A stretch of DNA of 64,000 nt from Humibacter albus DSM 18994 (GTDB taxonomy: Bacteria > Actinomycetota > Actinomycetes > Actinomycetales > Microbacteriaceae), in the NCBI RefSeq assembly GCF_000421825.1, contig NZ_ATXT01000011.1:558001-622000 (forward strand). Direction: 5' to 3'. A model generated the notes under the pieces. That model saw nothing but the letters and a program-made list of their open reading frames with translations. It was not told the origin of the DNA and made no database searches. The position numbers and the translations under genes were made by a program. Below are positions 28,763-36,004 of the stretch, in pieces; the stretch's first letter is position 1, and every line of letters begins with the position of its first letter.

Positions 28763-29659
28763 ATGGCTGATCCGGAATGGTTGACGACGGCTTTCGAGCG
28801 GGACAGACCGCGGCTGCGTGCGGTCGCGTATCGAGTGCTCGGTTCCATGACGGACGCCGATGACGCGGTGCAAGAGGCATGGCTGCGGCTGAGCCGGGCG
28901 GGCGCGGACGATGTGGAGAACCTGTCGGCCTGGCTGACCACGATCGTGGCACGCGTGAGCCTCAACATGCTGCGCGCCCGTCGCAGCCGACGCGAGAACC
29001 CGCTCGACACGTACGTGCCCGACCCCATGGTGGGTAGCGTGGGAACGACCGGGCCGGAGGACGAGGCAGTGCTTGCCGATTCCATCGGTCTCGCGCTGCA
29101 GGTCGTGCTGGACACGCTCAGCCCGGCCGAACGGATCGCCTTCGTTCTGCACGACATGTTCGATGTGCCGTTCGACGACATCGCGCCGATGGTCGAACGT
29201 ACCCCGGCGGCTGCACGTCAGCTGGCGAGTCGCGCGAGGCGACGCGTGCAGGGCGCTGATCGCGGAACCGCCGGCGCAGGCTTGCGCCGCCAGCGACAGA
29301 TCGTGGATGCCTTCTTCGCCGCTTCCCGCGCCGGTCGCTTCAACGACCTGGTCGCCTTGCTCTCCCCCGACGTGGTTCTGCGCTCGGACGGCGGCGATCG
29401 CCTGCCCGAGGCATCCGTGAACCTGACGGGACCCGCCGGAGTGATCGCTCACGCGAGACGGTTCCACCAGTCGGGCGCGACGCTCGTACCCGCGGTCGTC
29501 AACGACGCCGCCGGTGTGCTCGTCTGGCTCGACGGCCGGCTCGGAGCCGTGATGTCATTCGCTTTCGACGACGAACGCGTTGCGGGAATCGAGATACTCG
29601 CCGATCCGGGGAGGCTCGAGCGGCTGGCCGCGCGACTGCCGAATCGACCGCATAAGTGA
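28763..29659 (+). CDS. ECF41-type RNA polymerase sigma factor (SigJ-like)
   Basis: 298 residues: sigma region 2 at about 10-75 (FERDRPRLRAVAYRVLGSMTDADDAVQEAW, FLR), region 4 at about 115-165 (LSPAERIAFVLHDMFDVPFDDIA), then a SnoaL-like C-terminal extension from about 180 that is the hallmark of ECF41 and regulates the sigma factor in place of an anti-sigma. GGAG lies before ATG 28763. The divergent yceI-snoaL genes are likely targets, and the intergenic region holds an ECF41-like promoter facing the sigma gene. Confidence 0.92.
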   Translation: MADPEWLTTAFERDRPRLRAVAYRVLGSMTDADDAVQEAWLRLSRAGADDVENLSAWLTTIVARVSLNMLRARRSRRENPLDTYVPDPMVGSVGTTGPEDEAVLADSIGLALQVVLDTLSPAERIAFVLHDMFDVPFDDIAPMVERTPAAARQLASRARRRVQGADRGTAGAGLRRQRQIVDAFFAASRAGRFNDLVALLSPDVVLRSDGGDRLPEASVNLTGPAGVIAHARRFHQSGATLVPAVVNDAAGVLVWLDGRLGAVMSFAFDDERVAGIEILADPGRLERLAARLPNRPHK

Positions 29660-29861: not shown

Positions 29862-29985
29862 ACGTGAGCCTGTCGCGCCTCTGTACTCGGCTCGCCGGGG
29901 CGAGTACCGGATCCTCTACCGCATCATCGACGAGTGCTTCATGATCGAAGTCGTCTCGGTCACCCACCGCCGCGACGGATACCGC
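29862..29985 (+). pseudogene. RelE/ParE toxin remnant (C-terminal part)
   Basis: In the frame of the downstream deaminase gene, the reading (PLYSARRGEYRILYRIID ... VTHRRDGYR) is the C-terminal half of a RelE/ParE toxin: the GEYR-(I/V)-YRI strand and the HRR-x-x-YR ending are characteristic. The N-terminal half and any antitoxin are absent. There is no stop between this fragment and the next gene. Confidence 0.7.
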
Positions 29986-30072
29986 GTTCAATCACATCTC
30001 CGAGGTGCCGTGCATGCACGGGTATCGGCCGGCGGACGCTCTGTTCCTTCTCCGATCTGGCAGAGTGACTGC

Positions 30073-30792
30073 GTGCTGTACCCGCCTGAAAAGCGCGTCC
30101 TTGATGCTGCGCTGAGCCAGCTGGAGCTGTTGACCGGCGACCCGAACCATACCGTCGCGGCTGCGGCGATGGACACGACTGGCCGCGTCTTCACGGCCGT
30201 CAACGACTACCACTTCACCGGTGGTCCGTGCGCCGAGTTGGTCGTGCTCGGAGTCGCCGCGGCGGCAGGAGCGGGACCATTGACCACGATGGTCGCCGTC
30301 GGCGATCGAGGCCGCGGCATCATCCCACCATGCGGCCGGTGCCGCCAAGTGCTCCTCGATCAGCAGCCGGGCTGCCAGATCATTGTTCCGAGCCCATCAG
30401 GCGATCCTGATCTGGTACCGGTGCGGCGCCTGCTGCCGTACAGCTACAACTTCCCAGACGCGGATCCCGAGCGGTTCATCCGATTCAACCCCCGCTACTA
30501 CGACAGCGTTGCCACCGGGCAGAAGACTGCTACCACTCGATTCGACGACCCCTGCACACCAGGGCCGGCGTGGTTGGTGTTCGAGTTCGACGACCAATAC
30601 AAGCGTCTTCGCGGCGTTGTCGACTTCATCGAGACCAAGCGATTCGATGCGATCACGGACGCCGATGCACAGCGTGAAGGTGGTGCTGTCGCCGGCGATC
30701 TCAGAAACGGGCTTCGGGACCACTATCCGGATATCCGGGACGACTCCATCGTGGATGTGGTGCACTTCCACGTCGAACCATTCGCGGTCTGA
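30073..30792 (+). CDS. Blasticidin-S-deaminase-like cytidine deaminase fused to an ASCH domain
   Basis: 239 residues. Residues 1-125 are a zinc-dependent cytidine deaminase domain close to fungal blasticidin-S deaminase: the segment around YHFTGGPCAELVVLG and PPCGRCRQVLL has Cys53, catalytic Glu55, Cys87 and Cys90. Residues 135-239 are an ASCH domain with GQKTATTR; Lys151, Thr154 and Glu202 align with the catalytic triad of E. coli YqfB, an N4-acetylcytidine amidohydrolase. The GTG start at 30073 is chosen because the upstream frame is a RelE remnant and CAGAGT lies 6 nt before it. It may act on nucleoside antibiotics or modified cytidines. Confidence 0.85.
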   Translation: MLYPPEKRVLDAALSQLELLTGDPNHTVAAAAMDTTGRVFTAVNDYHFTGGPCAELVVLGVAAAAGAGPLTTMVAVGDRGRGIIPPCGRCRQVLLDQQPGCQIIVPSPSGDPDLVPVRRLLPYSYNFPDADPERFIRFNPRYYDSVATGQKTATTRFDDPCTPGPAWLVFEFDDQYKRLRGVVDFIETKRFDAITDADAQREGGAVAGDLRNGLRDHYPDIRDDSIVDVVHFHVEPFAV

Positions 30793-30902
30793 CCCTCGTG
30801 CAGAACCGTTCGCCTGCGAAAGGATCGCTCACCGGCCAGGACGACCGTGTCTGGGAGTGGCGGAGCCTGTTCGTGCCACCGGGGCTGCGGCAGACTCTGC
30901 GT

Positions 30903-31358
30903 ATGGATATTGAAGGGATGCCGGAGAGTGAGCGGCGCGTAATCCTCGACCAGCTCGAGGCTGGGAATTCCGGGGCAGCGAAGCTCGTGGGCGGCCGGCT
31001 AGCCGGCCGCGCTACTCCCGACAGACCTGACGTTCCCATCTGGGAGTACCGAAATTACGTGGCCGGCCATCCGGAGGTTGCACTGGAAGAGCTGAGCACG
31101 ATTCGCTTCCCAATCGTCTTTTACGGAGGCCACGAGTCAACTGTCGGATCGGCAGCCGACTCGCTGGCTCCGGGGCCTGTTCCGCCAACCGTGCCGATCA
31201 CGCTGGATGACGTCATCGATCTGTGGACGCAACTCCACGCGGCCGGCGTGGTGCAATGGGACTGCGAGCGACGCGCCGTCGAACACGTCCGTCCCCTTGA
31301 GGACTATAGAGCGGTGTTGACTCGATGGGGCGTCACCCTGCGCCACTCCACCTCCTGA
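30903..31358 (+). CDS. Hypothetical protein of the accessory region
   Basis: Not recognised. 151 residues from ATG 30903 (CAGACT lies 6 nt upstream, fitting a leaderless start). The frame is open upstream to a GTG at 30798, which would give 186 residues. Features: WEYRNYVAGHPEVALEEL, a Pro-rich loop and LDDVIDLWTQLHAAGVVQWD. No membrane segment. It follows the deaminase-ASCH gene on the same strand. Confidence 0.5.
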   Translation: MDIEGMPESERRVILDQLEAGNSGAAKLVGGRLAGRATPDRPDVPIWEYRNYVAGHPEVALEELSTIRFPIVFYGGHESTVGSAADSLAPGPVPPTVPITLDDVIDLWTQLHAAGVVQWDCERRAVEHVRPLEDYRAVLTRWGVTLRHSTS

Positions 31359-32637: not shown

Positions 32638-32910
32638 GTGGCGGCCAACTACAAGGGGGCAACCTTCAAATGCTTGGTCGAGGGCCCCAGTTCTTCATTG
32701 GCAGAAGTCTCCGAACGCTCCGATATCGTCACCGGTCATCCCGCACTCTGGCCTCTCGGTCGAGCGTGCGATTGGAAGCGTTCGGACGGTGCTGGAACGA
32801 TCACGACGTATTCCGGCAGCTGGCCCGGAACCGTCGAGTCGTTGGTGCTACTGGTCGGTGGAGCCGTCCTCACGCTTACCCCGCGGCGCCAGCAACCGAG
32901 AACGGTCTGA
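32638..32910 (+). CDS. Hypothetical small protein
   Basis: Begins with GTG three bases after the stop of the 32-residue membrane peptide and encodes 90 residues. Residues 65-80 (VESLVLLVGGAVLTLT) form a short hydrophobic segment near the C-terminus. No family recognised. The tight spacing suggests translational coupling with the peptide gene, but codon statistics are unconvincing. Confidence 0.35.
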   Translation: MAANYKGATFKCLVEGPSSSLAEVSERSDIVTGHPALWPLGRACDWKRSDGAGTITTYSGSWPGTVESLVLLVGGAVLTLTPRRQQPRTV

Positions 32911-34502: not shown

Positions 34503-34582
34503 GAGACAGGTCGGACCCAGCCCGTACGCAAGCCGATCCCTCTGCGCGCCGAGCAGGGTTGGCTTCCTTATATCGTGGTGCC

Positions 34583-36004
34583 GTGGCCGAAAGCGGTGGT
34601 TCCGGCGTTCTAGCGTCGATGCGTGATGACTTCCCCCGGTGGTATCAGGATGTGCTGGAGAAGGCTCAGCTCGCAGACAACGGGCCGGTGCGCGGCACCA
34701 TGGTCATCCGACCGTATGCGTTCTCGATCTGGGAGCGGATGCAAGCCGACGTCGACGCGCGCATCAAGCGCACGGGCGCGGAGAACGTGTATCTTCCGTT
34801 GTTCATCCCGCAGTCGTACCTCGAACGGGAGGCCGAGCACGTCGAAGGTTTCAGCCCCGAACTCGCCGTGGTGACGCACGCCGGCGGTAAGGAACTGACG
34901 GAGCCGGTTGTGGTGCGGCCTACCAGCGAGACGGTGTTCGGCGAGCTGATGGCCAAGTGGGTACAGTCCCATCGTGATCTGCCGATGCTGCTGAACCAGT
35001 GGTCGAACGTAGTGCGATGGGAGCTACGCCCGCGCCTGTTCCTGCGTACCAGCGAATTCCTGTGGCAGGAAGGCCACACCGCGCACGCGACGGCGGAGGA
35101 CGCGGCGGCGTATGCCCGGCGTATCCACCTCGAGGTCTACCGCGACTTCCTGCAGGACATGCTTGCGATCCCGGTGTACGTGGGAGTGAAAAGCCCCCGT
35201 GAGCGTTTCGCCGGCGCGATCAACACGATGACGTGCGAGGCGATGATGGGCGACGGGAAGGCGCTTCAGATGGCCACGAGCCACGAACTGGGCCAGAACT
35301 TCGCCCGTGCCTTCGGCATCGGCTACACGGACACCTCCGGAGCGGTCCGAACGTGCTGGACGACATCCTGGGGTTCGAGCACCCGCATGATGGGCGGCTT
35401 GATCATGTCCCATGGCGACCAGGCGGGACTGCGGGTCCCGCCCCGTATCGCTCCGATCCAAGCTGTCGTCATCGCAGTGAAGGATGATGAGCGCACCGTC
35501 GCGGCGGCAGCCACGCTCGTCGATGAGTTGACGCATGCGGGCGTGCGGGCGCGACTTGACGCGCGCAGCACCCCCGGTTTCGGCCGGCGGATCGTCGAGT
35601 GGGAACTCAAGGGAGTGCCGCTGCGCATCGAGGTCGGCCCGCGAGATCTGGACGCGCAGCAGGTCACGGTCGCGCGCCGCGACCTGCCCGGAAAGACAAC
35701 GCTGGTGCTGGATCACGTGAGTACGTCAGCATCCCTACTCCTCGACGAGATGCAGGCGGCGCTGTTCGCGCAAGCGACCCAGCGCCTGAACGAGAACACT
35801 ACCGACGTCGACACCGTGGCTGATGCGATCACCGCGGCATCCAGTGGCTTCGCGCGGATTCCCTACGCGAGCCTCGGGGAGAGCGGCGAAGACCGACTCG
35901 CGTCAAACGCGATCACGGTCCGTTGCCTCCAGACCCCCGACGGCGAGCTTCCATCCGCCGATGCCACAGAGGAGTTGTACGCGATCGTCGGCCGCAGCTA
36001 CTAA
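34583..36004 (+). CDS. proS: Prolyl-tRNA synthetase, eukaryote/archaea-type
   Basis: Class II synthetase charging tRNA-Pro, 473 residues from GTG 34583; TATCGT lies 6 nt upstream (leaderless). Residues 15-270 are the catalytic core (VRGTMVIRPYAFSIWERMQ, RPTSETVFGELMAKW, LFLRTSEFLWQEGHTAHAT, ATSHELGQNFARAFGI); the anticodon-binding domain follows. It lacks the INS editing insertion of E. coli-type ProRS. The C-terminal zinc domain is shrunken, with one of the usual cysteines, though the conserved C-terminal Tyr remains. Given its island context, it may be an extra copy. Confidence 0.9.
   Translation: MAESGGSGVLASMRDDFPRWYQDVLEKAQLADNGPVRGTMVIRPYAFSIWERMQADVDARIKRTGAENVYLPLFIPQSYLEREAEHVEGFSPELAVVTHAGGKELTEPVVVRPTSETVFGELMAKWVQSHRDLPMLLNQWSNVVRWELRPRLFLRTSEFLWQEGHTAHATAEDAAAYARRIHLEVYRDFLQDMLAIPVYVGVKSPRERFAGAINTMTCEAMMGDGKALQMATSHELGQNFARAFGIGYTDTSGAVRTCWTTSWGSSTRMMGGLIMSHGDQAGLRVPPRIAPIQAVVIAVKDDERTVAAAATLVDELTHAGVRARLDARSTPGFGRRIVEWELKGVPLRIEVGPRDLDAQQVTVARRDLPGKTTLVLDHVSTSASLLLDEMQAALFAQATQRLNENTTDVDTVADAITAASSGFARIPYASLGESGEDRLASNAITVRCLQTPDGELPSADATEELYAIVGRSY

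Follow-up and report, generated by a model that had tools for sequence, protein, structure and literature searches.

Two kinds of described enzymes stand closest to the protein considered here: blasticidin-S deaminase (BSD), with the cytidine deaminases (CDA) of the same superfamily, and E. coli YqfB, a member of the ASCH fold family. BSD converts blasticidin S into the non-toxic deaminohydroxyblasticidin S, as described in PMC4664946. According to PMC9897663, Glu44 of CDA_F14 is the ribose-binding glutamate of cytidine deaminases, and in CDAs the active site is lined by a Phe that belongs to a different subunit, close to its C-terminus.

For YqfB, the proposed mechanism comprises a threonine nucleophile, a lysine base and an arginine oxyanion hole. 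As reported in PMC6972931, the replacement of K21, T24 or R26 by alanine abolished the activity, the T24S variant was about as active as the wild type, E74A caused a loss of about 1000-fold on ac4C and H70A a loss of more than tenfold; H70 and D27 are given as 100% conserved in YqfB-like proteins. The YqfB-type enzymes described in PMC9599836 cleave N4-acetyl- and N4-benzoyl-cytosine nucleosides, act slowly on N4-(4-acetylbenzoyl)-2'-deoxycytidine, with incomplete conversion in 24 h, and are reported in that work not to bind nucleic acids. On the side of the antibiotics, PMC12856912 describes a ribosomal cytosine pocket common to blasticidin S and amicetin, the latter carrying a p-aminobenzoate (PABA) arm, and chimeras with a PABA-like arm on the C4 amine of blasticidin S, in which the cytosine amide is labile.

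The fusion gene and its deaminase half

In the window, i.e. the whole analysed stretch of 64,000 nucleotides from Humibacter albus DSM 18994, positions 30073-30792 of the forward strand form one open frame of 239 residues, translated from a GTG. It joins a BSD-type deaminase domain to a YqfB-like ASCH domain, and the following parts have been distinguished:

30073..30792, + strand: whole BSD-ASCH fusion gene, 239 aa, GTG start, stop included
30073..30453, + strand: BSD-type deaminase domain, residues 1-127 (phmmer to 1wn5 residues 6-126; VIA-align to 2z3g)
30199..30237, + strand: BSD-type signature VNDYHFTGGPCAE, residues 43-55, with the Zn ligand C53 and the proton shuttle E55
30328..30348, + strand: PCGRCRQ, residues 86-92, with the Zn ligands C87 and C90 (family counts)
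30454..30465, + strand: short linker PDAD, residues 128-131 (alignment)
30466..30780, + strand: YqfB-like ASCH domain, residues 132-236 (Pfam PF04266 and ASCH profile against the PDB)
30523..30540, + strand: KTATTR, residues 151-156, in which K151, T154 and R156 correspond to YqfB K21, T24 and R26 (HMMER alignment)
30580..30585, + strand: F170-E171, invariant among the fusions (20/20)
30676..30678, + strand: E202, at the position of YqfB E74, variable among the fusions
30721..30729, + strand: H217-Y218-P219, in which Y218 corresponds to YqfB Y89 and H217 is invariant

The residues named in the original prediction (C53, E55, C87, C90, K151, T154 and E202) are all present under the same numbering. 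The longest ATG-started frame begins at 29941 and encodes 283 aa. The start codon is likely to be 30073 rather than this ATG, because the DNA similarity to the relatives begins near 30073 and the frame of one of them opens at the equivalent GTG. In the blastn comparison of five distinct relatives (a sixth locus, L059, duplicates L004), the similarity begins at 30047-30073 for L003, L047, L004 and L048 and at 30138 for L067, and the alignments end at 30678-30771; the L003 frame has its first codon precisely at the GTG that matches 30073, after a stop.

Residues 6-126 match the Aspergillus terreus BSD (1wn5) with an E-value of 7e-38 in phmmer, as against 1.7e-9 for the best cytidine deaminase. 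The close agreement with the fungal BSD core that had been claimed for this protein is confirmed, since YHFTGGPCAELVVLG is identical letter for letter in the A. terreus enzyme. The predicted model of the deaminase half superimposes on BSD 2z3g with Z 20.6 and an rmsd of 1.9 over 120 aligned residues (VIA-align), compared with Z 15.2 for the best CDA, and the identity to seven BSD entries in the structural alignments is 46-50%. In the AlphaFold2 model of the full chain, computed from an alignment of four rows, residues 1-120 lie in pLDDT blocks of 64-95, so that this half is modelled at fair confidence. The Pfam deaminase model scores 22.8 bits on the window protein, below its 25-bit cut-off, and the TIGR01354 equivalog of tetrameric cytidine deaminases scores 46.4 bits against a cut-off of 113.65.

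The characteristic features of the BSD family are found in this half: (i) the zinc ligands and proton shuttle of the C-x-E ... P-C-x-x-C pattern (C53, E55, C87, C90); (ii) the HFTGGPCAE signature; (iii) a tyrosine, Tyr46, in place of the ribose-binding glutamate of CDAs (NxE). Among the 21 fusion deaminase domains compared, namely those of the 20 intact fusions and that of a fusion split by an insertion sequence (L072), HF and GGPC are fixed throughout and the ribose-Glu position is always occupied by Tyr, His, Ser or Phe; it is Tyr in the A. terreus BSD and Glu in the separate CDA of the window genome. By these sequence tests, the deaminase half is a member of the BSD family. Plain cytidine salvage by the fusion protein is unlikely, because its deaminase lacks the ribose-binding glutamate of cytidine deaminases; the deamination of cytidine itself, which had been proposed as one activity of the chain, has accordingly lost ground, the glutamate being replaced in 21/21 fusion domains and kept in the genome's own CDA.

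C53, E55 and C87 are invariant in all 20 intact fusions, of which 15 have Cys and 5 have Asp at position 90. The replacement of the zinc ligand C90 by Asp is seen in 12 of 52 BSD-type rows (5/21 fusion, 7/31 other), PCGRDRQ standing in place of PCGRCRQ in the fusions L005, L057, L058, L069 and L070 and in the standalone proteins L040-L046. Position 127, that of the last active-site aromatic, is Phe in the window protein and W in 8, F in 7, H in 3, Y in 1 and S in 1 of the 20 fusions.

The ASCH half and its putative active site

Residues 137-234 are recognised by the Pfam ASCH model PF04266 (E 1.4e-7, 32.6 bits, cut-off 21.2). A profile of 12 ASCH halves, searched against 177,635 PDB sequences with an E-value limit of 10, retrieved only the E. 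coli YqfB entries 1te7 (E 3.7e-7) and 9kyf (5.9e-7). These E-values, like that of the BSD match, are well outside what chance would give. The AlphaFold2 models of this half, likewise from four-row alignments, are of low confidence: its pLDDT blocks range over 37-77 when the full chain is predicted, and the mean is 54.8 when it is predicted alone. Even so weak a model ranks YqfB 9kyf/9kyh at the top, with an rmsd of 2.8 over 72 aligned residues and a Z of 5.5, a value too low to stand alone; the next ranks are the ASCH-type 3s9x, 1t62, 2z0t, 5guq and 1xne (of which we take 1t62, 2z0t and 1xne to be ASCH structures), and other folds reach Z 2.5 at most.

The original prediction had matched this half to YqfB through a Lys-Thr-Glu set. 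The Lys and the Thr/Ser of this set, with Arg156 in addition, are fixed in the family, but the Glu is not, and the position of YqfB His70 is Asp198 here. Among the 20 fusions, K151 and R156 occur in all, and 18 have Thr and 2 have Ser at position 154, so that the essential YqfB residues K21, T24 and R26 have their counterparts. Position 202 is E in 13, D in 5, P in 1 and R in 1; position 198 is D in 14, S in 2 and Q, E, R and H in one each. Invariant in 20/20 are also E171 and H217, and Y218 is kept in 19 and replaced by Asn in one. The YqfB H70 and D27 equivalents of the window protein are Asp198 and Phe157, which departs from the YqfB pattern, and the NCBIfam YqfB equivalog NF003443 gives 13.7 bits against a cut-off of 93; by these measures the fusion protein falls outside the YqfB equivalog. 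The putative nucleophile-base-oxyanion part of the YqfB site is kept in the fusions, unlike its Glu/His part, for which E171 and H217 may stand in; E171 would be a candidate catalytic acid or substrate binder.

An open frame of another genome of the same bacterial family (G105, L079:407-1141, minus strand) runs from stop to stop and carries a HIT and an ASCH domain, both above the Pfam cut-offs; it is possibly another fusion of ASCH with an enzyme.

Distribution, surroundings and history of the fusion

A total of 20 intact BSD-ASCH fusions, some chromosomal and some plasmid-borne, have been aligned; they represent nine genera or more. The expectation of two enzyme-type domains in one chain is thereby borne out, as the pair is conserved across a recurring gene family. 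Of the 398 genomes searched in the bacterial family, 10 carry an intact fusion (G000, G057, G330, G066, G126, G317, G163, G326, G234 and G136), and G294 has a degraded copy. The class sample contains fusions in 5 of 394 genomes, the window genome included, and the phylum sample in 2 of 396, both already among those of the other samples. Judged by the range matched, the fusions, with the degraded copy counted, make up 11 of the 29 BSD-type family rows at E up to 1e-20, and 5 of the 28 class rows; rows that are neither a fusion nor a degraded fusion number 18/29 and 23/28, respectively.

Matches were obtained for 19 plasmid records, in 6 of which the query coverage is at least 80%: one Curtobacterium, three Streptomyces and one Rhodococcus, the sixth being a second S. 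goshikiensis record. The plasmid fusions, e.g. WP_111025509.1 and WWY89093.1, are annotated solely as 'ASCH domain-containing protein'; the sub-cut-off Pfam deaminase score may hide the deaminase half from annotation pipelines. Phage records and viral contigs yielded no relative of the fusion, nor did PADLOC give a match on the fusion locus, and a phage or defence origin was rejected on this basis.

In six close members, the pairwise dN/dS is 0.06-0.22 for the deaminase half (15/15 pairs) and 0.07-0.22 for the ASCH half (14/15 pairs, one saturated), figures that are rough since dS is near or above 1. Both halves are under similar purifying selection in these members. A chance or frameshift artefact is ruled out by this selection and by the 20 intact fusions.

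The gene is mobile, with the patchy, non-syntenic distribution expected for a detoxification gene. Within the genus it is present in 3 of 5 genomes, one of the two genomes without it being a draft of 87% completeness. In G057, the PHP gene that neighbours the fusion in the window is located on a different contig, and in G126 about 1.2 Mb separate the two genes. The DNA common to the relatives in blastn is the gene and not the flanks, with one short exception. This is a 219-base stretch (window 32640-32858, L003 2746-2964 of Humibacter sp. RRB41) which is 77% identical, lies at most about 3 kb from the fusion gene in both genomes, and has no Pfam or Rfam match. A resolvase gene is found upstream of the fusion in L003, and the Rhodococcus plasmid fusion is flanked by IS elements. 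On the Paenarthrobacter plasmid pYJN5-2 (L072:7947-10161), an IS256 transposase gene lies between the BSD-type half and the ASCH half; both halves are still open, as separate frames, and the ASCH half is shortened.

The surroundings were examined through the annotation at five plasmid loci, Pfam searches of 10 window proteins, and Pfam searches of 20 frames from 11 further loci, chosen by a rough GC3 rule from loci other than L004, L005 and L058. At these five plasmid loci, the window and the 11 further loci, neither a consistent partner gene nor an antibiotic gene cluster was found beside the fusions, and the idea of an operon partner was dropped, as the neighbours differ from locus to locus. 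They include MFS, PadR, resolvase, M23 peptidase, GH25, methyltransferase, MOSC, YjbR, ABC and YchF proteins, among others. MFS transporters recur near three fusions at differing positions: one adjoins the fusion in L047, and the distance is about 2 kb in L071 and 5 kb in L069. In the window, the neighbour at 30798-31355 has no Pfam match, and the frame at 28763-29656 (+) encodes an ECF sigma factor with a SnoaL-like tail, which is SigJ-like with a score of 243 bits, below the cut-off of 271. Further along, 34559-36001 (+) encodes a prolyl-tRNA synthetase (TIGR00408, 485 bits, cut-off 437), which we take to be of the family-I, archaeal/eukaryotic type. A weakly similar 794-codon open frame at G000:C18:140999-142570 may be the usual bacterial ProRS, in which case the genome would have two.

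The history of the fusion was approached through trees of both domains. The deaminase tree comprises 53 rows, 21 from fusions (the IS-split L072 counted as one) and 32 others, after setting aside duplicate loci of the same genes, the degraded copy L054/L014, L074, 10 of the 29 family rows (E up to 1e-20) and the standalone plasmid hits H8-H18. The fusion state must change 6 times on this tree, and well-supported branches force at least 4 of these changes. For the ASCH tree (32 rows, 21 from fusions and 11 others), a single fusion clade is rejected with p-AU 0.0005, in the presence of long branches. A single-origin clade of the fusions was thus recovered for neither domain.

Some standalone deaminases fall inside fusion clades, such as L063, which stands next to the IS-split L072. 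In one genus, five standalone deaminases end just past a linker of the fusion type (LLPVSYA, R/L, PD, A/E, stop), and no ASCH remnant was found in the 1.5 kb downstream of them. Two of these five have lost a catalytic residue, C53 being replaced by S in L064 (G034) and E55 by A in L065 (G259), which may reflect decay or a non-deaminase role; in that genus it is as if the deaminase decayed once the ASCH domain had gone. The degraded fusion L054 (G294) retains the end of the deaminase, and its ASCH part is split between two frames. These patterns are read here as an old fusion that would have been split repeatedly, with decay in one genus; repeated joining would also fit the trees. The ASCH domain is dispensable in some lineages, because many BSD-type proteins lack it and some fusions have lost or split it.

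Proposed function and comparison with known systems

The BSD-ASCH fusion is proposed to be a horizontally moving detoxification enzyme, of the resistance type, in Actinomycetes, removing the N4-acyl group and then the amino group of cytosine nucleoside antibiotics such as those of the amicetin group. A probability of about 0.45 is given to this reading. The ASCH half would hydrolyse the cytosine N4-acyl amide, with Thr/Ser as the nucleophile, Lys as the base and Arg forming the oxyanion hole; the exposed 4-amino group would then be removed by the BSD-type zinc deaminase half, leaving an inactive uracil-type compound. Blasticidin-type compounds with a free amino group would be handled by the deaminase half alone. 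The most natural substrate class would be the amicetin group, in which the cytosine N4 is joined to p-aminobenzoate, and N4-benzoylcytidine and N4-(4-acetyl-benzoyl)-2'-deoxycytidine may be regarded as mimics of this N4-PABA amide. The activity of both halves in this protein, the sequence of the two steps and the choice of substrate are what we infer; the substrate is a guess, because no antibiotic cluster or consistent partner gene stands beside the fusions examined. An antibiotic-inactivation role, already put forward in the original prediction, is favoured by the BSD-type identity of the deaminase and by the patchy, plasmid-borne distribution, which resembles that of resistance genes.

As the ASCH domain starts right past the position of the C-terminal Phe of CDAs, it may sit at the mouth of the deaminase site of a neighbouring subunit. 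A separate deacylase is not strictly needed, because cytidine deaminases convert N4-acyl cytidines directly, according to PMC9897663. In a more specific version of the proposal, which is rather unlikely, the ASCH domain is rewired, the invariant Glu171 and His217 taking the roles of YqfB Glu74 and His70; it would cut the N4-amide, and the freed cytosine would be destroyed by the tethered BSD. The fusion would then be a natural single-chain, two-step resistance enzyme against N4-acylated cytosine antibiotics of the amicetin, plicacetin and cytosaminomycin type, with which the neighbours of producers would get round an N4-acyl cap; such a cap might otherwise protect the base from BSD.

The alternative that survives best, though rather unlikely, is that only the deaminase works as an enzyme, in a blasticidin-S-like detoxification, and that the ASCH domain, without catalysis of its own, serves as a lid, for substrate binding or for stability, at the mouth of the active site of an adjacent subunit. 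The evidence for the deaminase (E 7e-38, Z 20.6) is much stronger than that for the amidase, the E202 and H70 equivalents are not conserved, many BSD-type relatives have no ASCH domain, and the pocket Phe near the C-terminus of CDAs described in PMC9897663 would place any domain past residue 127 close to the site. A mere lid, however, would not need the set K151, T/S154, R156, E171 and H217, kept in 20/20 fusions, and the dN/dS of the ASCH half in the six close members is as low as that of the deaminase half.

Less probable still is a parallel detoxification, the halves acting on different bonds or on different antibiotics of a mixture, e.g. on an amide elsewhere in a peptidyl nucleoside. The invariant E171 and H217 and the lost H70 suggest an ASCH pocket changed with respect to YqfB, as this explanation would have it, but the YqfB-type activity described in PMC6972931 and PMC9599836 is on the exocyclic N-acyl group of cytosine or isocytosine.

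Pyrimidine salvage from N4-acetylcytidine through cytidine to uridine in one chain is improbable. The BSD-type deaminase without the ribose-binding Glu (21/21 fusions), the separate CDA gene of the window genome and a patchy, mobile, plasmid distribution unlike that of core salvage genes weigh against it, even though the Pfam search found no ASCH gene in the window genome other than the fusion itself and ac4C is described as the primary substrate of YqfB-type enzymes (PMC9599836). A nucleic-acid-directed enzyme, for RNA/DNA base editing or modified-base processing with ASCH as the binding domain, is very improbable: PUA/ASCH domains often bind nucleic acids (PMC7641849), but YqfB-type ASCH enzymes are reported not to (PMC9599836), the substrate of BSD is a free nucleoside, and the locus has neither a PADLOC match nor a homologue in phage records or viral contigs.

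If deacylation followed by deamination is indeed the function of the fusion, it would mean that ribosome inhibitors of the amicetin group can be inactivated by an enzyme; the PABA arm of these compounds is currently being attached to the C4 amine of blasticidin S to obtain selective antibacterials (PMC12856912). A natural chain of 239 residues would then carry out the deacylate-then-deaminate logic that prodrug researchers built from two enzymes (PMC10688628). The fusion also offers a directly testable case for the job of many uncharacterised ASCH domains, and the annotation of the gene family is poor, since the plasmid records name the ASCH half only.

As judged from its domains, the BSD-ASCH protein is a new combination of known enzyme kinds. 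The original prediction knew of no characterised enzyme with this pair, and among the papers listed by searches of the open-licence literature none, judged by title or start of abstract, deals with a blasticidin deaminase combined with an ASCH domain. With BSD (A. terreus 1wn5/2z3g, Coccidioides 3oj6 and the standalone actinobacterial BSD-type proteins) the fusion shares the fold, the zinc motif and the YHFTGGPCAELVVLG core; the A. terreus enzyme, of 130 aa, stops just past the last active-site aromatic (presumably Trp128), whereas the fusion runs on into the ASCH domain. The likeness to YqfB (1te7/9kyf) consists of the ASCH fold family, the K-x-x-T-x-R motif, a Tyr at the Y89 position and, in the window protein though not throughout the fusions, a Glu at the E74 position; YqfB is a standalone protein of 103 aa, and the fusion differs from it by Asp198, Phe157 and the invariant E171 and H217. 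The tetrameric CDAs have in common with the fusion the deaminase superfamily fold and the zinc site, and possess a ribose-binding Glu that the fusion, which has an ASCH domain, lacks. There is also a man-made counterpart: in PMC10688628, YqfB or D8_RL is combined with a cytidine deaminase of the cell for prodrug activation, N4-acyl 5-fluorocytidines being first deacylated and then deaminated, as is proposed for the fusion. In contrast to that prodrug system of two separate proteins of different origin, the fusion is one natural chain.
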